From Pelosinus fermentans DSM 17108 (GTDB taxonomy: Bacteria > Bacillota > Negativicutes > DSM-13327): 64,000 bases of DNA. The position numbers were made by a program, and so were the translations under genes. Shown here in pieces: positions 1 to 28,905 of this stretch. The notes under the pieces are model-generated. The model saw only the letters and a list, made by a program, of their open reading frames with translations. It did no database searches and was not told the DNA's origin. The stretch's first letter is position 1; every line of letters starts with the position of its first letter. Location: the NCBI RefSeq assembly GCF_000271485.2, contig NZ_AKVN02000001.1:3063501-3127500 (forward strand), given 5' to 3'.

Positions 1-3000
1 GCTTATCTTGGGCGTGATACATATAAAGAGTACCCCTGGGCATACGGTGACTCACCACTACTCTGGCGGCAACGACACCATTACGGTTATATACTTCTAC
101 CCAGTCATTATCTTTAAGATCTGCCTGCAAGGCGTCCTGATGGTTCACCCATACATGAGGCCCACCGCGGAATAAGGTCAGCATATGCAGGTTATCTTGA
201 TAGGTACTGTGTATATTCCATTTGCCATGGGGGGTAAGATATCGCAGCACAATCTCCTTACCTGCTGCTAAGGGTTTATGTTCTTTGCCAGCAAACAGTA
301 CCGGTGATAAAGTCGGTTTATATACAGGCATGGCTTCACCAAACTCCAGCATGATTTCATGATCGATATAGAAATGCTGCCGTCCTGTCAATGTGCGAAA
401 AGGCATCAAATGATCGATACTGGTAGTAAAGGGTGAATAGCGCTTATTTCCTTGATTGGAACCAGTAAACACAGGTGTGGGAATAACTTGCCTAGGCTGC
501 ACCGTAATGTCATTAAAAGTAAACTTTTCTCCCGCCCGGCCAGCGCTGATATCTTTAAGCTCCATACCCGTTTTCTTTTCCGCATCTTCCCAAGCCTTCA
601 TGGCTAATTTGCCATTAGTAGCACTTGACAATGTAAGGATTGCTTCTGCCGCTTGACGAGCAGTCTCAATAGCAGGTCGACCGAAAGCCACACCTGGCAC
701 CGTAATCTGCCCATTACTCTTTTTTAGTTCCTCATACTGTTCTTTAACAGGAAAAGCAATACCATGGGCCCCCACTGGATTTTTTCCTAACAATGGACCA
801 AGGGAAGTAAATTTATTATAAATTTCTTTATAATCCCGCTCCACCATTACCAGATTCGGCATCGTCTTTCCAGGCACCGCTTCTACTTCCCCTTTGCGCC
901 AATCCAGCACCTTGCCAAAAGGCTGGGCAATCTCGCCTGGCGAATCATGCATAAGAGGCACTGCCACGATATCTTGTTGCACCTCAGGCAGATATTCTTT
1001 TGCTGTAGTGGAAAAGGCCTTGGCTAAACTTTTGAAAATATCCCAATCTGATTTGGCTTCCCAAGGTGGATTAATAGCTGGATTGAACGGATGAACAAAA
1101 GGATGCATATCCGTACTGCTTAAATCTGTTTTTTCATACCAAGTAGCTGCAGGCAGTACAATATCAGAATAAAGCGCCGTGCCAGCCATACGAAAATCTA
1201 TAGTAACCAATAAATCCAGCTTACCTTCTGGCGGTGCATTATTCCACGTAACTTCCTCTGGTCTTAGCTCTTCATTCGGTTCCGATAAGAGACCATGAGA
1301 TGCTCCCAGTAGATATTTCAGAAAATACTCATGCCCTTTACCAGAACTAGAAATCAGGTTAGAACGCCAGACAAATAATCCACGAGGGTGATTCTTCCTG
1401 TTGTCAGGGTCTTCTACGGCAAAAGACATGGATTTGTCCTTGAGTTTTTCAACGACATGACGGATGACTTGTTCGGAAGTTTCAGCTCCTGCTTGACTGG
1501 CTTTAGTACTCAGCTGTAAAGGATTTTCACTAAACTGAGGGTAGGAAGGCATCCATCCAAGTCTAGCGGCTAACACATTATAGTCTGCGGGATGGCTATA
1601 GCGGCTTTTAGTGACTGTTGGTGATTTTAGTCCATCCATGCTATGTGTTTCATACTGCCACTGGTTGGTGGCAAAATAAAAAAAGGAGGTCGCATTCTGC
1701 AGACGGGGAGGCATTGACCAGTCACGAGCAAATGCTACTGTACCCCAGCCTTCGATAGGACGACACTTCTCCTGTCCTACATAATGAGCCCAACCACCGC
1801 CATTTACGCCCTGACAGCCAGTTAGGATTACCAAATTTAATATAGCCCGATAAATGGTATCTCCATTAAACCAATGATTAATGCCTGCTCCCATGATAAT
1901 CATGGACCGCCCCAACGTATCGGCAGCATTTTGGGCAAATTCTCTAGCTATCTGAATCACTAATTCCGTTTCCACATTCGTATGTTTCTTTTGCCAAGCC
2001 GGGGTATATGTTTGTTCATCATAATAATCTACAGGATATTGTCCTGGCAGATTACGTTTCACTCCATATTGAGCTAACATCAGATCAAATACAGTTGTGA
2101 CTCTTAGCAATTTACCGTTATTCATAATCAATTTAACAGGGATGCCTCGTTTAACAATTCCAGTACCACCTTCCGTAAATTCAGGAAGATCCACGCAAAT
2201 TTGCTCATCTTCCAGGCCAAGGAATGTCAGTAAAGGAGAAAGAGCCTCACCAGATTCATTCTCCATTTTCAGATTCCATTGTCCCGTACTATCCCAACGC
2301 TGGCCAATGGTCCCTTTAGGAATTGCCGGGCCTTCTTGTACTGCATCCCACAGTACTGGTTTCCACTCGCCTTTATTTACTGCCAGCCCAAGATCACTAG
2401 CCCTTACAAAACGCCCCGGGGTATAAACAGTATCCTCTTTTTCAATGAGTACTAAAAATGGCATATCCGTAAACTGTTTTGCATAGTCCAGAAAGTATTT
2501 TTCTTGTTTATCAACATAAAATTCTTTCAAAATTACATGGGTCATTGCCTGAGCTAGAGCAGCGTCTGATCCCGGATTAACTGGAAGCCAATTGTCAGCA
2601 AATTTTACATTTTCCGCATAGTCAGGACTGACGGCTACGACCTTCGTACCTTTATAACGGACTTCCGTCATAAAATGGGCATCCGGTGTTCGAGTCATTG
2701 GTATATTGGAACCCCACATAATGATATACCCCGCATTATACCAGTCGCTGCTTTCTGGTACATCCGTCTGCTCACCCCATATCTGTGGTGATGCAGGGGG
2801 CAAATCTGCATACCAGTCATAAAAGCTTAGCATAGGGGCACCTAAGAGTGATAAAAATCGTGATCCCGCTGCATAGCTGACCATGGACATGGCAGGTATA
2901 GGCGTAAAACCAGCAATGCGGTCAGGTCCATAAGTGATAATGGTATATAGCAGCATAGCTGACATGATTTCATTAACTTCTTGCCACTCAGCCCGTACAA

Positions 3001-3484
3001 AGCCGCCCTTGCCCCGCACCTCTTTATATTGTTTTGCTTTGTCTTGATCTTCTACAATCGAGCCCCAAGCCTTTACTAAATGACCATTATTTTTTGTTAA
3101 TGCCTCACGCCATAATGACAATAATTGACTGCGAATATAAGGGTGCTTAATTCTAAGAGGACTATATACATACCAGGAGAAGCTAGCTCCCCTTGGACAT
3201 CCTCTAGGCTCGAACTCTGGCATATCCGGTCCTGTGGAAGGATAATCTGTCTGCTGGTTTTCTGAGGTAATAATACCGTCCTTAACAAATACCTTCCAGC
3301 TGCAGGACCCTGTACAGTTTACACCATGGGTCGTGCGTACCACTTTGTCATAATTCCAACGCTTACGGTATATAGTTTCAGCGTCTCGATCATCTGCAAC
3401 CACTTGACTCCAGCCATTCTGCGCTGTTTCTTTGATTTTAAAGAAATTCAGTTTTTTCCATAATGGTAATTCTTGCTTCTCCAT
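1..3484 (-). CDS. narG: Respiratory nitrate reductase alpha subunit (3' end cut by window)
   Basis: Catalytic molybdopterin subunit of the membrane-bound nitrate reductase, reducing nitrate to nitrite with electrons from NarH/NarI. I translated the minus strand from an ATG at 3484, preceded by GGAGGTGA. About 1160 residues are present; NarG is usually about 1220-1240, so only the C-terminus is missing. Near residue 55 lies HGVNCTGSC, the H-x3-C-x3-C part of the FS0 [4Fe-4S] site, with the fourth Cys in PRGCPRG further on. TRTPDAHFMTEVRYKGTK matches the bis-MGD-binding region of NarG. It follows narK by 23 bp in one operon; narHJI would be expected just outside the window. Identification is firm. 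Confidence 0.97.
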   Translation of the reverse strand, partial: MEKQELPLWKKLNFFKIKETAQNGWSQVVADDRDAETIYRKRWNYDKVVRTTHGVNCTGSCSWKVFVKDGIITSENQQTDYPSTGPDMPEFEPRGCPRGASFSWYVYSPLRIKHPYIRSQLLSLWREALTKNNGHLVKAWGSIVEDQDKAKQYKEVRGKGGFVRAEWQEVNEIMSAMLLYTIITYGPDRIAGFTPIPAMSMVSYAAGSRFLSLLGAPMLSFYDWYADLPPASPQIWGEQTDVPESSDWYNAGYIIMWGSNIPMTRTPDAHFMTEVRYKGTKVVAVSPDYAENVKFADNWLPVNPGSDAALAQAMTHVILKEFYVDKQEKYFLDYAKQFTDMPFLVLIEKEDTVYTPGRFVRASDLGLAVNKGEWKPVLWDAVQEGPAIPKGTIGQRWDSTGQWNLKMENESGEALSPLLTFLGLEDEQICVDLPEFTEGGTGIVKRGIPVKLIMNNGKLLRVTTVFDLMLAQYGVKRNLPGQYPVDYYDEQTYTPAWQKKHTNVETELVIQIAREFAQNAADTLGRSMIIMGAGINHWFNGDTIYRAILNLVILTGCQGVNGGGWAHYVGQEKCRPIEGWGTVAFARDWSMPPRLQNATSFFYFATNQWQYETHSMDGLKSPTVTKSRYSHPADYNVLAARLGWMPSYPQFSENPLQLSTKASQAGAETSEQVIRHVVEKLKDKSMSFAVEDPDNRKNHPRGLFVWRSNLISSSGKGHEYFLKYLLGASHGLLSEPNEELRPEEVTWNNAPPEGKLDLLVTIDFRMAGTALYSDIVLPAATWYEKTDLSSTDMHPFVHPFNPAINPPWEAKSDWDIFKSLAKAFSTTAKEYLPEVQQDIVAVPLMHDSPGEIAQPFGKVLDWRKGEVEAVPGKTMPNLVMVERDYKEIYNKFTSLGPLLGKNPVGAHGIAFPVKEQYEELKKSNGQITVPGVAFGRPAIETARQAAEAILTLSSATNGKLAMKAWEDAEKKTGMELKDISAGRAGEKFTFNDITVQPRQVIPTPVFTGSNQGNKRYSPFTTSIDHLMPFRTLTGRQHFYIDHEIMLEFGEAMPVYKPTLSPVLFAGKEHKPLAAGKEIVLRYLTPHGKWNIHSTYQDNLHMLTLFRGGPHVWVNHQDALQADLKDNDWVEVYNRNGVVAARVVVSHRMPRGTLYMYHAQDK

Positions 3485-3507: not shown

Positions 3508-4809
3508 TTAGCACTTTATCTCTGCATTTGCACGACTATAATAATAATGAATTACAAATAGACTGATGATATAAAAGGCAATAAAACCATATAAGGCCAT
3601 GGCAGGCGATCCAGTAGTCCGTGTTGACCAACCAAAAGCTATGGGAACAAAAAACGCACCATAAGCAGCAACGGCTGAAATAAAGCCAATAGCTGGCGCT
3701 GCTTCTTTAGGGTTAAATATTTTGGAAGACATGCCAAACGTGGAACCGCTGGCTGCCCCAGTAGTAACAAATAAAATTAATGCCATGATAAAAAATGCGA
3801 CAAAATTATGTTGGTTCATAAAAAAGATAACTCCTAAGGTAGCACCACTCATAATAAAAATAGACCCAAAGCTTACTCGCGCCCCACCGTATTTATCAGC
3901 AGCCCAGCCTCCTATAGGACGAGAGAGAGCGCCTACGAGAGGTCCTAAAAAAGCATACTGCAACGGGTTAATGCCAGGAAATTGCAACTTTATCAATAAA
4001 GGAAACACTGCGGAATAACCAATAAAAGAACCAAAAGCAATGGTATAGATAAAACTCATGACCCACATATGTTTACAGCTAAAGATGCTGAATTGTTCAC
4101 GAAGGGATGCTTTAGCAGTCTCCAGGTTATTCATACCAAAAAACGCGGCTACTGTGATCACTACAATAGGAATAATCCATATAAAGGCAGCATTTTGCAG
4201 CCAAACACTTTTAGCACTCCCACCATTCACTAAAAGTTGAGGCTCACCACCGATACTGCCAAAGATTCCAAAGGTAATAACAAACGGTACCACAAACTGT
4301 ACAACACTGACGCCTACATTACCCAATCCCCCATTGATTCCTAATGCAGTTCCCTTCAATTTCTTAGGGAAAAAGAAACTAATGTTACCCATAGACGATG
4401 CGAAGTTTCCTCCACCTAAGCCACACAATATAGCCAGTATAGCCATTGTCTTATAGGTTGTCGTAATATCCTGTACTGCATATCCAATACCAATCGCTGG
4501 AATTAAAAGAGATGCTGTGCTAATCACCGTCCAATTCCGTCCACCAAAAACAGGTATTACAAAAGCATAAAAAATTCGTAACGTTGCACCTGATAATCCT
4601 GGCAAAGCAACTAAATTAAACAACTCCTCCGTACTGAATGTGAACCCTGCACTGTTAAGATTAACCGCTACAACCGACCATAACACCCAAATGCAAAAAG
4701 ATACGAGTAGAGCCGGAACAGAAATCCATAAATTTCGGTTCGCAATTTTTTTTCCCTCCTGCTCCCAAAAAATAGGGTCCTCCGGATTCCATATTTTCAA
4801 TTTATACAA
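3508..4809 (-). CDS. narK: NarK-type nitrate/nitrite transporter
   Basis: Major facilitator protein of 433 residues with about 12 membrane segments that moves nitrate in and/or nitrite out. The two nitrate signature motifs are present: a Gly-rich GINGGLGNVG around residues 157-166 and a second one near GAASGSTFGMSS. Conserved Arg residues occur in ATLRIF (about residue 78) and ALSRPIGG, the positions that bind the anion in E. coli NarK. Translation probably starts at a TTG (4809), because GGGGG lies 8 nt upstream and no better start exists. First gene of the narK-narG operon; a palindrome-controlled promoter lies directly upstream. Whether it is a nitrate/proton symporter or a nitrate/nitrite antiporter cannot be told from sequence. 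Confidence 0.95.
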   Translation of the reverse strand: MYKLKIWNPEDPIFWEQEGKKIANRNLWISVPALLVSFCIWVLWSVVAVNLNSAGFTFSTEELFNLVALPGLSGATLRIFYAFVIPVFGGRNWTVISTASLLIPAIGIGYAVQDITTTYKTMAILAILCGLGGGNFASSMGNISFFFPKKLKGTALGINGGLGNVGVSVVQFVVPFVITFGIFGSIGGEPQLLVNGGSAKSVWLQNAAFIWIIPIVVITVAAFFGMNNLETAKASLREQFSIFSCKHMWVMSFIYTIAFGSFIGYSAVFPLLIKLQFPGINPLQYAFLGPLVGALSRPIGGWAADKYGGARVSFGSIFIMSGATLGVIFFMNQHNFVAFFIMALILFVTTGAASGSTFGMSSKIFNPKEAAPAIGFISAVAAYGAFFVPIAFGWSTRTTGSPAMALYGFIAFYIISLFVIHYYYSRANAEIKC

Positions 4810-4855: not shown

Positions 4856-4921
4856 ATTTTAATATTTTGTCGATGAAAAGTAATGTAGGGAATCCCCTAT
4901 ATCGATTAAGGGGATCCCCTA
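4856..4921 (-). promoter_or_regulatory. narK promoter with two NreC-like palindromes
   Basis: Reading the minus strand: a distal palindrome (plus strand 4908-4921, AAGGGGATCCCCTA) and a proximal one (4886-4899, TAGGGAATCCCCTA) have centres 22 bp apart, about two helical turns. They are followed by TTACTT (-35, 4878-4883), a 16-bp spacer and TAAAAT (-10, 4856-4861). The proximal centre is 31 nt from the -10, i.e. about -43.5, a class II activation position. The proximal site fits TAGGG-N4-CCCTA exactly, as described for NreC of staphylococci. The same layout recurs at 7830-7895 and 8271-8314. Confidence 0.85.
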
Positions 4922-4961
4922 CATTGGCTATAAAAAATCATTTATGTCATTATTGTTAACT

Positions 4962-5909
4962 TTACCAATATATATACTCCGCTACTTGCGCCTTAGGATT
5001 CAAAATTACATCTTTCAATACCCAGTTTTTGAATACCTGATAACCAGTTCTATCAACAATGTATCCTACATGTTCCTTTCCTCCTGGTGCATCTTTGTCT
5101 ATATAATTATGGACATAGGCATAGGTATTTTTAATGATCTCTAAAACACTAGCTTCATCAATCCACTTGATAAACGGCTGCGCAATTCTAGGGTTCTTTC
5201 TTCCCGTTCTTCCCATAATTACAAGCTGATATAAATTATTGGAACTTCTCGTCCAAGCCCCTGTTGGGCACTTTAATACACATTCTCCGCAGCCAATGCA
5301 TTTATCTGAATGCCTGACTACCTTAAAGTTTTCAAATTTCAAGGCGCCAGCAGATTTTTTTTCACAAGCTTTTACACATGCCTGACATCCAATGCACCGA
5401 TAGGAATCATACTGTGGCTCGTTCATGCCAATAATGCCAAAATCATTCATTCTTGCCTTAATACAATCATTAGGACAACCAGTAAGAGCAATTTTCACAT
5501 GATAATCATTAGGAAAAATCACTTTCTCTATCCGTTGAGCAAAAGCACTTGTATCAAAATTAGCAAACTGGCATACCCGACTCCCAATACAGGCCGCAAC
5601 ATTTCTGGTACCTGCTGCAGAATATCCTGCATTAGAATCAGTTTGGTTAACTTCAAGTCCGTCGATTAGACTTTGAATTATGGCATTCACCTCTGCCATT
5701 TTTTCAATATCAATACCTGAAATCTCAAAACCTTGTCGCGTTGTTATATGAATGGTACCATTACCAAATGTTTCTGCCACGTACTTAACCGTATCCAGAT
5801 ATTTTGCTGCCATTTCTCCCCCTGGAACCCTAATCCTAATAGCAGTCTTATATCTTTCCTTTGTTATACGAAAGGCATTCTTTTTTAGTATTTTTGTATT
5901 TATATCCAT
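4962..5909 (-). CDS. asrC: Anaerobic sulfite reductase subunit C (siroheme catalytic subunit)
   Basis: Catalytic subunit of the cytoplasmic AsrABC complex, which reduces sulfite to sulfide by six electrons at a siroheme-[4Fe-4S] centre. The siroheme motif is complete: C107-x5-C113 and C145-x3-C149. Two ferredoxin-type [4Fe-4S] motifs follow, CIGCQAC at about 172 and CIGCGEC at about 204, each with its remote Cys. Length (315) is normal for AsrC. Last gene of asrABC, 19 bp after asrB. Siroheme reductases of this fold also reduce nitrite; the shared promoter motif with narK makes nitrite a possible substrate here, but that is inference. No terminator is visible before the nar promoter. Confidence 0.94.
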   Translation of the reverse strand: MDINTKILKKNAFRITKERYKTAIRIRVPGGEMAAKYLDTVKYVAETFGNGTIHITTRQGFEISGIDIEKMAEVNAIIQSLIDGLEVNQTDSNAGYSAAGTRNVAACIGSRVCQFANFDTSAFAQRIEKVIFPNDYHVKIALTGCPNDCIKARMNDFGIIGMNEPQYDSYRCIGCQACVKACEKKSAGALKFENFKVVRHSDKCIGCGECVLKCPTGAWTRSSNNLYQLVIMGRTGRKNPRIAQPFIKWIDEASVLEIIKNTYAYVHNYIDKDAPGGKEHVGYIVDRTGYQVFKNWVLKDVILNPKAQVAEYIYW

Positions 5910-5928
5910 ACATACTGCTCCTCCTTAA

Positions 5929-6723
5929 TTAATCAATAAAACTTTTAGCTTTCACATAATTAAACACAGGTCCCTCAAGACAAATATAAGTATCGTCAAT
6001 TTTACAGTGTCCGCATTTGCCAACGCCACAGCACATTTTTCTCTCATAAGACACCCATATATTTTCTTCCCTAATCCCTCTTTTTAAAAATTCTGCCACA
6101 GTAAAACGAATCATTACAGGCGGGCCTACAACAATCACATTTGCCATTGATTGATTTTCTATGGAGATATCTTGTATATAATTTGTAATAAGACCCGTAT
6201 TGCCTGTATACGTTTCATCATCTGAACCATCTACTGTTACTATAACATTGATTGTCCTTTGCCACTTCTCAAAGTCAGCTTTATAAAGTATATCTTTAGG
6301 TGATTTGAATCCAGCAATCAAGGAAAAGACTGTCACTTCATGAACATTATCAGCAAAGTAATCTACAACGCCTTTGACTGGTGCTAACCCCGTCCCACCA
6401 GCAGCAACAATAACTTCCTTCGATTTAAACAAGTCAATGTTAAAACCATTACCATAAGGCCCCCTTAGGAATAGCACGCCACCTTCCTGTAGCTCATGAA
6501 TCGTATTGGTAACCAGCCCCACTCTGCGAATTGTCAATCCAACATACCCTTCACCAATTTCACTCACAGATATGGGTGCTTCGCCAAATTTAGGAATGGA
6601 TACTTCAAAAAACTGTCCAGGCTTTACATCGCCCTTATACTCCATTAAGAAAGTATAATCAATAGCAGTATGAGGAATTATTTTTATAATTCGGGATTTA
6701 AAAGGCAGATACGTATTGCTCAT
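5929..6723 (-). CDS. asrB: Anaerobic sulfite reductase subunit B (FAD/NAD(P)H module)
   Basis: Electron-input subunit of AsrABC, a flavoprotein of the ferredoxin-NADP reductase / dihydroorotate dehydrogenase B (PyrK) family that passes electrons from NAD(P)H. 264 residues. The N-terminal FAD-binding barrel includes TIRRVGLVT, the NAD-binding part includes AAGGTGLAPVKG (about 108-119), and a C-terminal Cys cluster CCGVGKCGHC plus a later Cys (about 231-248) binds [2Fe-2S]. Its ATG overlaps the asrA stop codon by one base (TAATG) with GGAGGAG upstream, so the two are translationally coupled. Confidence 0.94.
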   Translation of the reverse strand: MSNTYLPFKSRIIKIIPHTAIDYTFLMEYKGDVKPGQFFEVSIPKFGEAPISVSEIGEGYVGLTIRRVGLVTNTIHELQEGGVLFLRGPYGNGFNIDLFKSKEVIVAAGGTGLAPVKGVVDYFADNVHEVTVFSLIAGFKSPKDILYKADFEKWQRTINVIVTVDGSDDETYTGNTGLITNYIQDISIENQSMANVIVVGPPVMIRFTVAEFLKRGIREENIWVSYERKMCCGVGKCGHCKIDDTYICLEGPVFNYVKAKSFID

Positions 6724-7715
6724 TATTTCTCCTCCACTATGCTCTTAAGTCTATTTGCACAATGCGCAATCGAAATATACTCTGGACATGCATCATCACA
6801 TCTTCCACACCCGACACACATATGGTAGCCAAAGCGCTTTTTATAATCATGAAACTTATGCATCACTCTAAATCGCATACGATCTCCTTGCTTTTTGCGG
6901 AAAGAATGTCCTCCGGCCATATCCGTGAAGCCATCAACCATACAGGAAGACCAAACCCGTCTTCGCTCTCCCATGTTTTTATTTTCTTTATAAAAGATAT
7001 CTTGCATCGAGAAACAACTACAAGTTGGACATACAAAACTACATCTTCCGCAGCCGATGCAGCGAGATGAATATTCTTCCCAAAAAACAGATTGTGCCAG
7101 CCCTTTTGATAGCTCTTTCGGTATAGAAACCTTCGTTTTATTTTCCATGACGAAATGCGGAGAAAGGTCTACTACCTTTTCATCCAGCCGACTCATCTCT
7201 TTATTATTAATTCCGACATATACATAATCACCATCAGGACGTATAAACATATCATATTCATCCGTAATATTGGTTCCCATACTGGCGCAAAAACAGTTTG
7301 CAAAACTTTCATGACATTCGATGAGACAAAATCTTACTTTTTCACGAAATACCTTATAGTAAGGATCTTCACATCCATTTCTTAGATAGATATCATCAAG
7401 CCTTTTTATGCCATGTATGTCACAACTTCTCAAGAATAGCAGTACTTTTTTATCATGAACCTTGGGTTCTGTCCAATTATCCTCGTTAAAATAAAATAAA
7501 TTCTCAGTAATGGGTAGAAGAATTTCTTTAGCAGAAAAATTAGTTTTTATCGTCAGTTCGACTTCTTCCAGCTTTGTTATTTTCTGATACCTAACTGAAT
7601 CCGTATTGGTAAAAGCCCCCTTCCCCAAGAGAGCTACGGGAGCAAAAATTAGATACTCCTTTTCTAGTTCTTTTAAGTACTGGTTAAACCTTATCCCGGT
7701 TACTTTATATGCCAT
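6723..7715 (-). CDS. asrA: Anaerobic sulfite reductase subunit A (ferredoxin-like)
   Basis: Electron-transfer subunit of AsrABC carrying two [4Fe-4S] clusters: CIGCGRC...CP at about 219-230 followed by TCSC, and CVGCGRC...CPEYI at about 300-311. 330 residues, close to the enteric AsrA length. The family also resembles the 4Fe-4S subunits that link flavin modules to hydrogenases. The start at 7715 is supported by GGAAAGGA 8 nt upstream. First gene of asrABC, with a 115-nt leader running from a palindrome-controlled promoter at 7830-7895. Confidence 0.93.
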   Translation of the reverse strand: MAYKVTGIRFNQYLKELEKEYLIFAPVALLGKGAFTNTDSVRYQKITKLEEVELTIKTNFSAKEILLPITENLFYFNEDNWTEPKVHDKKVLLFLRSCDIHGIKRLDDIYLRNGCEDPYYKVFREKVRFCLIECHESFANCFCASMGTNITDEYDMFIRPDGDYVYVGINNKEMSRLDEKVVDLSPHFVMENKTKVSIPKELSKGLAQSVFWEEYSSRCIGCGRCSFVCPTCSCFSMQDIFYKENKNMGERRRVWSSCMVDGFTDMAGGHSFRKKQGDRMRFRVMHKFHDYKKRFGYHMCVGCGRCDDACPEYISIAHCANRLKSIVEEK

Positions 7716-7829
7716 TATTTTTTTCCTTTCCTACGTTTGTTTTTTCTTATGAATCCTGCTTTTACCCTTGCCTCTTTAAGAACCTTATTATTCTATAGTT
7801 CTTTTGTGCAATGAATAGACATCAGGCTA

Positions 7830-7895
7830 ATTTTAATATTTAACTACTAAAAAGTAATGTAGGGAATTCCCTCTATTGCTAAAGGAAATTCCCTA
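7830..7895 (-). promoter_or_regulatory. asrA promoter with two NreC-like palindromes
   Basis: Minus-strand promoter built like that of narK. Distal palindrome at 7882-7895 (AAGGAAATTCCCTA), proximal palindrome at 7860-7873 (TAGGGAATTCCCTC), centres again 22 bp apart. Then TTACTT at 7852-7857, a 16-bp spacer and TAAAAT at 7830-7835. The proximal centre is again 31 nt from the -10. The spacing is base-for-base the same as at narK. Confidence 0.85.
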
Positions 7896-7985
7896 CATTG
7901 TTTATTTTAATAAATTTCTATTCCTAGAGGGATTACACCATTTTAATTATTTGCAAAGAAAGTAACACATTATTTTAGAATGTAT

Positions 7986-8177
7986 CTACCACCAATAATG
8001 AGGGTATTTGTACTTTAGTACATATTTATTAAAAACCACTGCTACAGCTGCTACCATGATGCTGCCAATCAATACTGTAAAGAAAACCTTCCTCGCACAC
8101 AAGCTCCCTAAAGTAGACCAACTAATGTGTTTAAAGTTTAATTTGCGATGCAGTATTTGTCGCGAATTAGTATGCAT
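7986..8177 (-). CDS. Small single-span membrane protein, function unknown
   Basis: 63 codons if translation starts at the ATG at 8177; a longer in-frame ATG at 8234 would give 82 residues but has no ribosome site. GGAGAGG lies 13 nt upstream of 8177, rather far. The product is basic at its N-terminus, has one clear membrane segment (FFTVLIGSIMVAAVAVVF) and ends in an aromatic, basic tail, KYKYPHYWW. I do not recognise a family. Support for it being real comes from the strong promoter at 8271-8314, which shares the nar/asr architecture and has no other gene to drive before asrA. It could be an accessory subunit or membrane anchor for nar or asr; that is speculation. Confidence 0.5.
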   Translation of the reverse strand: MHTNSRQILHRKLNFKHISWSTLGSLCARKVFFTVLIGSIMVAAVAVVFNKYVLKYKYPHYWW

Positions 8178-8270
8178 ACATGTCGTTATTCCTCTCCAAC
8201 ATCTAATAAGGCCCATGGAACAATTTACAAACATCGTAAATATACTTGTACCTATATCAGCAGGAAATTT

Positions 8271-8314
8271 ATTATACTCTTTTGATGGCTAAAAGTAATC
8301 TAGGGAATTCCCTA
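8271..8314 (-). promoter_or_regulatory. Third NreC-like promoter, upstream of the small membrane protein
   Basis: A perfect palindrome TAGGGAATTCCCTA at 8301-8314 is followed on the minus strand by TTACTT (8293-8298), a 16-bp spacer and TATAAT (8271-8276). The distance from palindrome centre to -10 is 31 nt, identical to the narK and asrA promoters. No second palindrome is seen 22 bp further upstream. It lies in the 105-bp gap after the DUF438 gene. Confidence 0.8.
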
Positions 8315-8339: not shown

Positions 8340-9569
8340 TTAGTCTGTAATTCGCTTTTCTCCCGTAATCGCTTGAATCGGCTTAATATCCTGGGTAACT
8401 TCTAAAACACCAGCGAAATTTTCCTCCCTGTCTCTTACCGCAAAATAACGAATATATACGAATTTATCTCCCATCTTAATCCAAAAGTCTTCATCGTCCT
8501 TTTTCCCGCTTTTAAAGTCCTCCACTATTTTTTCTACCACATGGGCACTCGCTGGAGGATGGCAGTTTTCTACCTTACGACCTATAATCGTACGGGTGCG
8601 TGGGAAAATTCGATCCTTGGTCGTAGAGAAAAACTTAACGACTCCATTTTTATCAACAAAAGTGATATCAACTGGTAAATGCCGATAAATCAATTCAATT
8701 TCTTGGGGTGATAAAAAACCAGTGTCAAACTTAACATGACCACTTGTATTATTTTCATTGAGCGGATTTATAACGCCTTCCTTCACATCCTCCCGATATG
8801 GTTTCCAGCCATACTGAGGTTCCACTAAGCAATAACCAATTTCATCACTGTCGAGTAGAGCACGGTACCATTCATCTTCTGAGAGGGTTTCCATCGCCAT
8901 TGGCAGAAATATTTTTTCTTCTTTAAATATCATTTCCTCAACTTGTACTAATGTTTCTTCCGTTTTAGCTATTAACTTCTCTTTTATAGGTGATTGATAA
9001 GCAACAGCCAAGCTTTTTGCTTCTTTTAACAAGTTTCTGATTTTATCGTCGACGCCCCACATGACTTTGGGTGGCCCAGTAATTTCATACTTCTCCAAAA
9101 ACGGAAATATAAGATCCTCTTTTCGCCTATAATGTTTATCAACATCCCATAGCAAGTTTATTTTTTCAGTCAATTGTAAAGCTAATGCTTTTTCAGCCTG
9201 GTCTGACGCCTGCTTTAGTTCGATGAGGATAGGCCTAATTTCCTGATCTATTAGCTTTTGCACTGCTTGATTCTCTGCTATAAAAATTGCTGCTGGATGT
9301 CCATGCTCTACTGATAATTCCGGATTTTTCTCTAATGCATCTCGGAAGACCGCAGCATGAACATCGCAAAGTCGTTGGACTTCTTCCACTGGTAACCCCT
9401 CATTAATCAGTCCTTGTTCAATCAAAGAGAGTTCAGATGGATCCATACCTACAGCAATTTTATCAAATTTGGCTTTGACGTCCTGAACTGATTTTCCCTG
9501 ATGAAGTTCCAAGATTATTTCTTTTAAAGCCTTTTGCCTGTATTCTCGATTATTAATTAGTTCACTCAT
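8340..9569 (-). CDS. DUF438 / hemerythrin-like / PAS domain protein
   Basis: 409 residues in three parts. The N-terminal DUF438 domain (about 1-75) contains the pattern around MDPSELSLIEQ. A hemerythrin-like HHE four-helix region (about 95-240) has candidate metal ligands in HGHPAAIFIAEN, HYRRKEDLIF and EEKIFLP. The C-terminal PAS domain (about 280-400) begins at FLSPQEIELIYRHLP. Proteins of this type are usually read as sensors of redox, oxygen or NO; no output domain is present, so a partner would be needed. GGGGAGGT precedes the ATG. Its position next to nitrate and sulfite/nitrite genes fits a role in NO or redox stress, but this is context only. Confidence 0.85.
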   Translation of the reverse strand: MSELINNREYRQKALKEIILELHQGKSVQDVKAKFDKIAVGMDPSELSLIEQGLINEGLPVEEVQRLCDVHAAVFRDALEKNPELSVEHGHPAAIFIAENQAVQKLIDQEIRPILIELKQASDQAEKALALQLTEKINLLWDVDKHYRRKEDLIFPFLEKYEITGPPKVMWGVDDKIRNLLKEAKSLAVAYQSPIKEKLIAKTEETLVQVEEMIFKEEKIFLPMAMETLSEDEWYRALLDSDEIGYCLVEPQYGWKPYREDVKEGVINPLNENNTSGHVKFDTGFLSPQEIELIYRHLPVDITFVDKNGVVKFFSTTKDRIFPRTRTIIGRKVENCHPPASAHVVEKIVEDFKSGKKDDEDFWIKMGDKFVYIRYFAVRDREENFAGVLEVTQDIKPIQAITGEKRITD

Positions 9570-27158: not shown

Positions 27159-28439
27159 TTATAGTACATTGATCCCCGCTGCCAAATTGGCTGATTCAAT
27201 GGCCTGATGAGCTAATTCATTAGCTTGACCAAGAGTCGTCATGGTCTGATCGGTATTATGAAAGCCCATACTATTTTCAGCTGACACAATATCCCACATC
27301 CACTGGGCTTTACGCACCAATTCTCTAGCTTTGGCAAGTTCAGCCTGATTGACATTTGGCGTATCACCAGCTTTTCGTATCGCTTCATGAGCTTTAGCTA
27401 CATTTAAGCCTGCAGTATGCTGCAGCAAGAAGGTTTGATCTTGGATTGTCTTAACTCTTTCAGATAACCATTCTGTTCCTTGACTGTGGCATGGAGAACA
27501 AGAGGCATCAAGAGTCTTTAATGGGCTTGTAATAAAATGGGATGTATATTTCTGCCCATCTTTACGCATATACGGCATATGACAATCAGCACATGATACC
27601 CCAGCCTTACCATGAGTACCATTTGCGAATGTTTCATAATCAGGATGCTGCGCTTTTAGCATTGGTGCTTTAGAATCCGGATGCTCCCAATCCTGAAGGA
27701 AGTTATTAGGTTTTTCAGCATAATAAGCATACATTTCCTCTGGCTTGAAGCCTTTATCCCAAGGAAAAACTACCCGCATAGTACCAGGTTCAAAATAATA
27801 TTCAGAATGGCATTGAGCACATACATACGTGCGCATTTCTTCTCTTGTTGCCTTACTCAAATCGATCCCCCGCCGTTCTTGTGCTTCAATAAATGCTGGA
27901 TTAATGACACGTAAGTTCATCGTTTCCGAGTCATGACATTGGGCGCAAGTAACAGGATGTTTACTCCTTTCTAATAATTCCCCTAAAGGTTTATTGGCAT
28001 ATCCCCAGCCTGATTCTTTATAAAATTGTTCCACATAAGGAGTTTTACAGGTGATGCACGCACCTTTACTAGCGGGGCCAATCCGTTTACTATGAAGTAA
28101 ATCTTCTACAGCATATACATGACCCCGATCCTCAGTATAATCCTTACTAAAAGGCATACCTTTAAAGTTTGTGAAAATTTCTGGCTGCATATCTGATTTT
28201 TGCACATTCACACTGCCTCCATAACCTGTAGGAGAAGGAGATACCTCAGCCATCTTTCGATAGCTTGCATATTGAAGGGGATAGACTTCTCCCCATACTG
28301 CTGCATCATATTCTCCTGCGGGGATGGGTGAGGCTTTGACTGTTGCTGCCGGTTTGACCCCAATACGTACAGCAACAAAACCAAAAAAGATGACTGCTAC
28401 ACCCAACAAGGCAATTAAGGTCTTTTGCATGTTACTCAA
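27159..28439 (-). CDS. nrfA: Ammonia-forming cytochrome c nitrite reductase, catalytic subunit
   Basis: Pentaheme enzyme on the outer face of the cell membrane that reduces nitrite to ammonium with six electrons. Heme motifs: catalytic CITCK (128-132) with the Lys ligand, then CAQCH (165-169), CAQCH (207-211), CADCH (283-287) and CSPCH (314-318). Active-site candidates are R105 (EDRGH), Y214/Y215 (SEYYF) and H265 (KAQHPD), the positions of the E. coli triad. An N-terminal hydrophobic segment (about 8-25) acts as signal or anchor. Start is TTG with GGGGG upstream; overlaps nrfH by 8 nt. Last gene of the ccm-nrf block. Confidence 0.97.
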   Translation of the reverse strand: MSNMQKTLIALLGVAVIFFGFVAVRIGVKPAATVKASPIPAGEYDAAVWGEVYPLQYASYRKMAEVSPSPTGYGGSVNVQKSDMQPEIFTNFKGMPFSKDYTEDRGHVYAVEDLLHSKRIGPASKGACITCKTPYVEQFYKESGWGYANKPLGELLERSKHPVTCAQCHDSETMNLRVINPAFIEAQERRGIDLSKATREEMRTYVCAQCHSEYYFEPGTMRVVFPWDKGFKPEEMYAYYAEKPNNFLQDWEHPDSKAPMLKAQHPDYETFANGTHGKAGVSCADCHMPYMRKDGQKYTSHFITSPLKTLDASCSPCHSQGTEWLSERVKTIQDQTFLLQHTAGLNVAKAHEAIRKAGDTPNVNQAELAKARELVRKAQWMWDIVSAENSMGFHNTDQTMTTLGQANELAHQAIESANLAAGINVL

Positions 28440-28905
28440 CTTTTATTCCCCCTTTGCTCTTGTTCATGCCATGAACTAAGCCGCGATGGCATTTCGTACA
28501 ATCCTCTCCACCGGCTCCCATACCAGTGTATTCTACTGTAGATTGATGACAGCGCATGCAATTGTCTTCTACGATCGCTTTGCCTTTAGGCGATAACTTC
28601 ATTGTTGCAGGATAATCTCGCAAGACTTCATGATAGGTATCATTCATACCGGTCTGCGCTTTCGTAATCATTTTGATGGCAAAATTCTGCTGTGGCAAAT
28701 GGCAGTCGGTACACTTGAGCTGCTTATGATTCGATGCCTGCCATGTAGTATGGGCTGCCTCCATCGAATGGCAACTTCCACAAAACCCTGGACTATCTGA
28801 ATAAGCATAACCAGCACCTCCAGCTGCCATTCCTATCATCACCACAACCAGGACCACCAGCGCAATCTTTAAAGCATTGCGGTTTAAAAACTGACCAGTA
28901 TCCAA
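28432..28905 (-). CDS. nrfH: Cytochrome c nitrite reductase small subunit (NapC/NirT-type quinol dehydrogenase)
   Basis: Membrane-anchored tetraheme cytochrome that takes electrons from menaquinol and passes them to NrfA. 157 residues: an N-terminal membrane helix (about 11-33) then CGSCH (42-46), CTDCH (65-69), CMRCH (116-120) and CTKCH (136-140). CGSCHSME matches the NrfH Met-ligated heme 1 region. Start is a TTG with GGAGGTGA 4 nt upstream. Follows ccmF by 62 bp and overlaps nrfA. Confidence 0.95.
   Translation of the reverse strand: MDTGQFLNRNALKIALVVLVVVMIGMAAGGAGYAYSDSPGFCGSCHSMEAAHTTWQASNHKQLKCTDCHLPQQNFAIKMITKAQTGMNDTYHEVLRDYPATMKLSPKGKAIVEDNCMRCHQSTVEYTGMGAGGEDCTKCHRGLVHGMNKSKGGIKVE

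Follow-up and report, generated by a model that had tools for sequence, protein, structure and literature searches.

Three promoters of one geometry suggest an NreABC nitrate regulon with asrABC and a decaying TM_HPP gene in Pelosinus fermentans

Why should genes for nitrate reduction, an annotated sulfite reductase and a small open reading frame (ORF) stand behind promoters of the same design? The question arises in a stretch of 64,000 nucleotides from Pelosinus fermentans DSM 17108 (contig NZ_AKVN02000001.1, positions 3,063,501 to 3,127,500; hereafter the window), in whose sequence three minus-strand promoters, those of narK, of asrABC and of a third, smaller gene, can be read directly within 3.5 kb. 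Our analysis indicates that the three are very probably class II targets of the NreABC oxygen/nitrate system encoded at the same locus, with asrABC and the third gene in the nitrite-related roles proposed below. In this system, oxygen is sensed by NreB and nitrate by NreA, and the sites of phosphorylated NreC at nar, nir and narT are GC-rich palindromes (PMC8139620, PMC5694512).

At the narK promoter, a proximal box (TAGGGGATTCCCTA, 4886-4899) is centred 31 nt before the first base of the -10 element TAAAAT (4856-4861), and a distal box (4908-4921) lies 22 bp further upstream. The asrABC promoter repeats this arrangement, with the proximal box (GAGGGAATTCCCTA) at 7860-7873, the -10 element TAAAAT at 7830-7835 and the distal box, again 22 bp upstream, at 7882-7895. 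The third promoter carries a single box (TAGGGAATTCCCTA, 8301-8314), which keeps the 31-nt distance to its -10 element TATAAT (8271-8276). Common to all three minus-strand promoters is a TTACTT block, followed by 16 bp and the -10 element. An earlier note on this DNA, made from the letters alone, had given these boxes with their coordinates and the 31-nt and 22-bp spacings, and direct reading bears all of them out. As a -35 element TTACTT is poor, matching the consensus TTGACA at two of six positions, which is to be expected because the promoters would depend on an activator. If transcription starts 7 nt past the -10 element, the box centres would be placed near -43.5 and -65.5.

To gauge chance occurrence, the complete genome of 5.03 Mb was scanned by pattern search, with the reversed motif as control. 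The bare palindrome TAGGGN4CCCTA has two exact matches, as many as the control, and hence no genome-wide enrichment; both copies fall inside the 3.5-kb stretch. Because the box alone equals its control, it was dropped as evidence, and we regard only the full architecture as informative. When box, ATTACTT, N16 and TANAAT were required together, with up to three mismatches, the genome yielded three matches, all at the cluster, and the control none. The simpler combination of box, N24 and TANAAT with at most one mismatch again gave only these three (control: two). Across 380 Negativicute genomes, just four stray matches to the architecture lie outside the cluster of nar, asr and third promoters, each with three mismatches. 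The genome scan that the earlier note had suggested therefore finds the motif confined to the three promoters and not scattered.

A candidate regulator is encoded behind the first of these promoters. The nitrate/nitrite MFS transporter gene narK (3508-4809, minus strand; 298 bits to TIGR00886, slightly under the cut-off of 311.7) heads an operon of the order narK-narG-narH-narJ-narI-nreA-nreB-nreC, which is kept in five Pelosinus genomes. The 5' part of narG (2-3484, minus strand) runs off the window, and narH, narJ, narI, nreA, nreB and nreC follow to its left (contig 3058292-3063305), so that nreABC directly adjoins narGHJI. The nreBC-like pair that the earlier note had proposed to look for is thus found, together with nreA, as the tail of the box-headed nar operon. 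NreA is a 144-aa GAF protein with a GAF_2 domain, and among solved structures it matches those of NreA best (4iuh, E 8.6e-21; 4pau). NreB is a 361-aa histidine kinase with PAS, HisKA_3 and HATPase_c domains and the cysteine motif CX2CX11CX2C, which also occurs in the NreB of genomes G002 and G003 and of Staphylococcus simulans. All five Pelosinus NreB proteins have an additional cysteine six residues past the second cysteine of the motif. NreC is a 219-aa response regulator of the LuxR type (NarL/FixJ). When S. simulans NreC was compared with six GerE-type proteins of the P. fermentans genome, NreC was clearly the best match (52% identity, 240 bits; next 162), and its recognition helix is near-identical to that of S. 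simulans NreC, whereas the other GerE proteins differ there. This orthology rests on the best-match comparison, as a small maximum-likelihood tree of NreC and only two paralogues gave no resolution. Since nreABC lies downstream of its own predicted target promoter, the system would be positively self-amplifying. Further along the same strand, nreC is followed by molybdenum cofactor genes (moaA, mobB, moaC and a mog/MOSC-type gene) and a molybdopterin oxidoreductase gene (contig 3053001-3058214); all these genes are possibly read from the nar promoter as well.

If NreC reads the boxes, boxes and sensors should be found together. We searched for NreB among 150 Negativicute genomes and for NreA and the promoter architecture among 380. 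Full-length NreB and NreA occur in five of the eight Pelosinus genomes but were not seen elsewhere among the Negativicutes searched, and the architecture at nar, asr and third promoters is present in the same five. The remaining three Pelosinus genomes have neither the sensors nor the architecture, bar one poor match in G007. Comparison between species reveals that conservation is focused on the elements themselves: 13 of 14 columns of the proximal box and all six of the -10 element are kept, as against merely 10-14 of 48 columns in the upstream flank. At the narK promoter of the five genomes, the proximal box is conserved at 13/14 columns and the -10 element is invariant, with the distal box conserved at 8/14; the distal box of asrABC reaches 13/14. 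In one of the five, the metagenome-assembled genome G002, the nar/asr cluster is present in two versions (on contigs C166 and C109), one about 99% and the other about 90% identical to the P. fermentans genome; this bin probably mixes strains. On C166, asrA and asrB appear broken. In all five NreB-bearing genomes the cluster is adjoined by a gene for a DUF438-hemerythrin-PAS protein (window 8340-9569, minus strand), for which a role in nitrosative stress or Fe-S repair is possible.

The same geometry recurs in Bacilli. We compared loci with NreA relatives from Paenibacillus and S. simulans, scanning for a -10-like hexamer at offsets of 15-60. The nar promoters beside nreABC carry boxes close to TAGGG-N4-CCCTA in both genera, and in 19 loci the distance from box to hexamer is exactly 31 nt, in one it is 30. 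Their second box lies 21-22 bp upstream, and the upstream boxes are 52-53 nt from the -10 element, that is, one further box-to-box step. The Paenibacillus loci are related to one another, as are the three S. simulans loci, and the independent units in these counts are three lineages. The 24-nt spacer between box and -10 element is unrelated in sequence between lineages; it is therefore the geometry itself that is conserved. The resemblance to the staphylococcal NreC site claimed in the earlier note accordingly extends to the box and the 31-nt distance at the nar promoters of S. simulans and Paenibacillus.

These comparisons bear on two other accounts of the boxes. Instead of the local NreC, their binder might be a regulator of the CRP/FNR type or a different protein of the NarL family, given that the genome encodes five clear Crp-type and several other GerE-type proteins, and that class II sites of CRP/FNR proteins usually lie not far from -43 either. 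Yet three separate lineages have the box at nar promoters that adjoin nreABC, within the genus it occurs only together with NreAB (the Crp-type proteins having been traced in the P. fermentans genome alone), and the recognition helix conserved in NreC differs in the other GerE proteins. Another binder is very improbable on these grounds, and CRP/FNR control in particular was set aside because the boxes co-occur with NreAB and because of the promoters in Bacilli. Nor does it seem credible, except at the very margin, that the three promoters are mere products of recent duplication within the cluster, devoid of regulatory function. The nar and asr promoters are indeed alike in the box, in ATTACTTTT and in the surroundings of the -10 element, which suggests common descent by duplication; against this, the boxes and the 31-nt spacing persist across species although the upstream flank has diverged, and Bacilli have the same geometry with an unrelated spacer.

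What, then, are the targets other than nar? The gene behind the third promoter is an ORF of 82 aa (7986-8234, minus strand), which the earlier note had taken for an unknown small protein. Alignment to the intact genes of relatives identifies it instead as what remains of a decayed TM_HPP gene after an internal, in-frame deletion of 303 bp. The ORF itself matches no family, PF04982 included, and is a remnant, not a TM_HPP member; a further TM_HPP copy was not found in the genome. Behind the same promoter, G005 (L104:3609-4103) and G006 (L103:3591-4124) have intact TM_HPP counterparts (PF04982, 138 and 136 bits). A caveat to the common promoter design is that P. fermentans has one box here and these two relatives have two, 22 bp apart; the single box looks as if a 22-bp deletion had merged two boxes into one, and the 303-bp deletion took the middle of the gene. 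In strain JBW45, a 277-bp deletion removed the -10 element and nearly the whole HPP gene; what is left of the gene is its end, now fused to the box region, and the box there lacks a -10 element. HPP proteins carry nitrite in cyanobacteria and chloroplasts, according to Maeda et al. 2014 as cited in PMC4137279. Because the intact relatives belong to a family that includes nitrite transporters, the third target was probably once a nitrite transporter, which the P. fermentans branch is now losing. Like the known HPP nitrite transporters (NITR2;1 of Arabidopsis and its cyanobacterial homologues), the intact relatives match PF04982; unlike them, the Pelosinus gene belongs to a bacterial nitrate-respiration locus, and the copy in P. 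fermentans is broken.

The second target encodes the three subunits of the anaerobic sulfite reductase AsrABC, all on the minus strand and all above the curated cut-offs: asrA (6723-7715; TIGR02910, 508 bits, cut-off 323), asrB for the NAD(P)H/flavin subunit (5929-6723; TIGR02911, 437 bits, cut-off 289) and asrC for the siroheme subunit (4962-5909; TIGR02912, 539 bits, cut-off 324). The genes lie directly upstream of the narK operon. In S. simulans this place, directly upstream of narG, is taken by nirB (750 bits to TIGR02374), and no full-length NirB was found in the P. fermentans genome, whose four siroheme-reductase ORFs include none of the size of NirB. Co-control of NirBD, which is part of the staphylococcal regulon, is a matter of the content of that regulon and not a defining trait of the NreABC sensor system. 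In Acididesulfobacillus acetoxydans, AsrABC rises 195-fold in the nitrate-grown proteome and has been proposed to act as nitrite reductase (PMC10949509). Because asrABC occupies the place of nirBD, because no siroheme-reductase ORF of NirB size was found and because AsrABC is nitrate-induced in A. acetoxydans, we consider it likely that asrABC is the cytoplasmic, NADH-linked nitrite reductase of the module. As in Pelosinus, the A. acetoxydans enzyme is NADH-linked and is placed together with NarK and NarGHI in nitrate ammonification; in contrast to Pelosinus, where asr and nar have a common regulator-box architecture, asr (DEACI_4025-4027) lies away from nar (1354-1357) in that organism, and the text of the paper does not mention NreC (PMC10949509). 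On balance we also lean towards the fuller proposal that AsrABC, hitherto known for anaerobic sulfite reduction, is in Pelosinus dedicated to nitrite as a cytoplasmic NADH:nitrite reductase that NreABC controls, replacing NirBD and with TM_HPP as partner nitrite transporter, which would make the locus a previously undescribed form of ammonification module.

Alternatively, NreC might control all three promoters with asrABC present for sulfite, and the locus would then be a real nitrate-sulfite link. The scores of AsrA, AsrB and AsrC far over the cut-offs of the sulfite reductase models agree with such a role, and Salmonella asr mutants, as related in PMC10949509, lose sulfite reduction and keep nitrite reduction. 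An nrfHA-like pair for an ammonia-forming cytochrome c nitrite reductase (window 27159-28905, minus strand) would moreover provide a separate, periplasmic nitrite route. We considered this pair as a fourth target and found no box in front of it in the window. With NrfHA also encoded, Asr is therefore not the only possible nitrite reductase. We nevertheless regard the sulfite role as unlikely: induction by nitrate would make little sense for it, the third co-controlled gene comes from a nitrite-transporter family, and both the position of asrABC and the nitrate response of the Acididesulfobacillus enzyme speak for nitrite. In addition, the Pelosinus genomes that lack NreB yielded no asrABC; in the stretches examined, G001 and G004 have only distant AsrC-like proteins (about 30% identity) and neither AsrA nor AsrB. 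The Salmonella mutants and NrfHA count against the nitrite role of Asr, and several further points tell against parts of the overall interpretation. Asr could serve sulfite after all, and the TM_HPP remnant is uninformative on substrate. NreA has NreA as its best NCBIfam model, but its 108 bits stay below the curated cut-off of 175. The NreB motif of G005 and G006 has a serine in place of its first cysteine, though the boxes are present; because this cysteine is lost in two box-bearing relatives, oxygen sensing by NreB may differ between Pelosinus species, and the cluster ligands, and hence oxygen sensing, may have shifted in the species of G005 and G006. On physiology, a passage of PMC6107796 has Pelosinus strain UFO1 reducing nitrate to nitrite with lactate and also states that nitrate was not reduced.

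For the NreABC regulon we propose the following course of events. Under anoxia the Fe-S PAS kinase NreB would become active, nitrate-bound NreA would lift its inhibition of NreB, and NreB would phosphorylate NreC. Phosphorylated NreC would then bind as dimers to the TAGGG-N4-CCCTA boxes, which would lie some 43 and 65 bp before the transcription start, and recruit RNA polymerase to promoters with a poor -35 element. Activation of narK-narGHJI-nreABC would provide for nitrate uptake, reduction to nitrite and amplification of the sensor; that of asrABC would supply a cytoplasmic siroheme reductase linked to NADH, which probably disposes of the toxic nitrite made by Nar by converting it to ammonium, in the role of staphylococcal NirBD; and the third target would be a nitrite-transporter-like TM_HPP gene, intact in two relatives and broken in P. 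fermentans. The earlier note had united nitrate reduction, siroheme reduction and the small protein into one regulon of a Negativicute. Boxes and locus-encoded nreABC support the joining of the three promoters under NreC; the identity of the small protein and the role given to the siroheme enzyme have changed. As asrABC most likely serves nitrite and not sulfite, the regulon is most likely a single-locus nitrate-to-ammonium module and therefore one nitrate/nitrite locus, not a bridge between nitrogen and sulfur metabolism.

How does this module relate to known ones? It shares with the NreABC regulon of Staphylococcus carnosus and S. aureus (narGHJI, nir, narT) the three proteins, including the NreB cysteine motif, the position of nreABC after narGHJI, palindromes of the TAGGG-N4-CCCTA type with the proximal nar box 31 nt before the -10 element in S. 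simulans, and a transporter and an NADH-dependent siroheme reductase as partners. It differs in that asrABC replaces nirBD, narK heads the operon and a TM_HPP gene is added, and in that the boxes are 22 bp apart instead of 21, with a TTACTT block between box and -10 element. The narGHJI-nreABC loci of Paenibacillus have the same operon order and box-to-(-10) spacing, and tandem boxes at narK promoters; unlike in Pelosinus, narK is separate and downstream, and asrABC was not found beside nar. A literature search for NreC with Negativicutes and for NreABC with Paenibacillus returned no match in the library searched. As far as can be judged from sequence, the locus is a variant of the known regulon: a Negativicute has a nitrate module of the NreABC type in which asrABC stands where staphylococci have nirBD.

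An oxygen/nitrate switch of the kind known from staphylococci, identical in promoter geometry, would thus operate in an anaerobic diderm Firmicute. What had looked like an unknown small protein becomes a traceable case of gene decay. The locus also adds evidence at the promoter level to the view, recently put forward, that AsrABC is capable of reducing nitrite; if this is true, asrABC annotated as sulfite reduction would hide ammonifying capacity in genomes and metagenomes.

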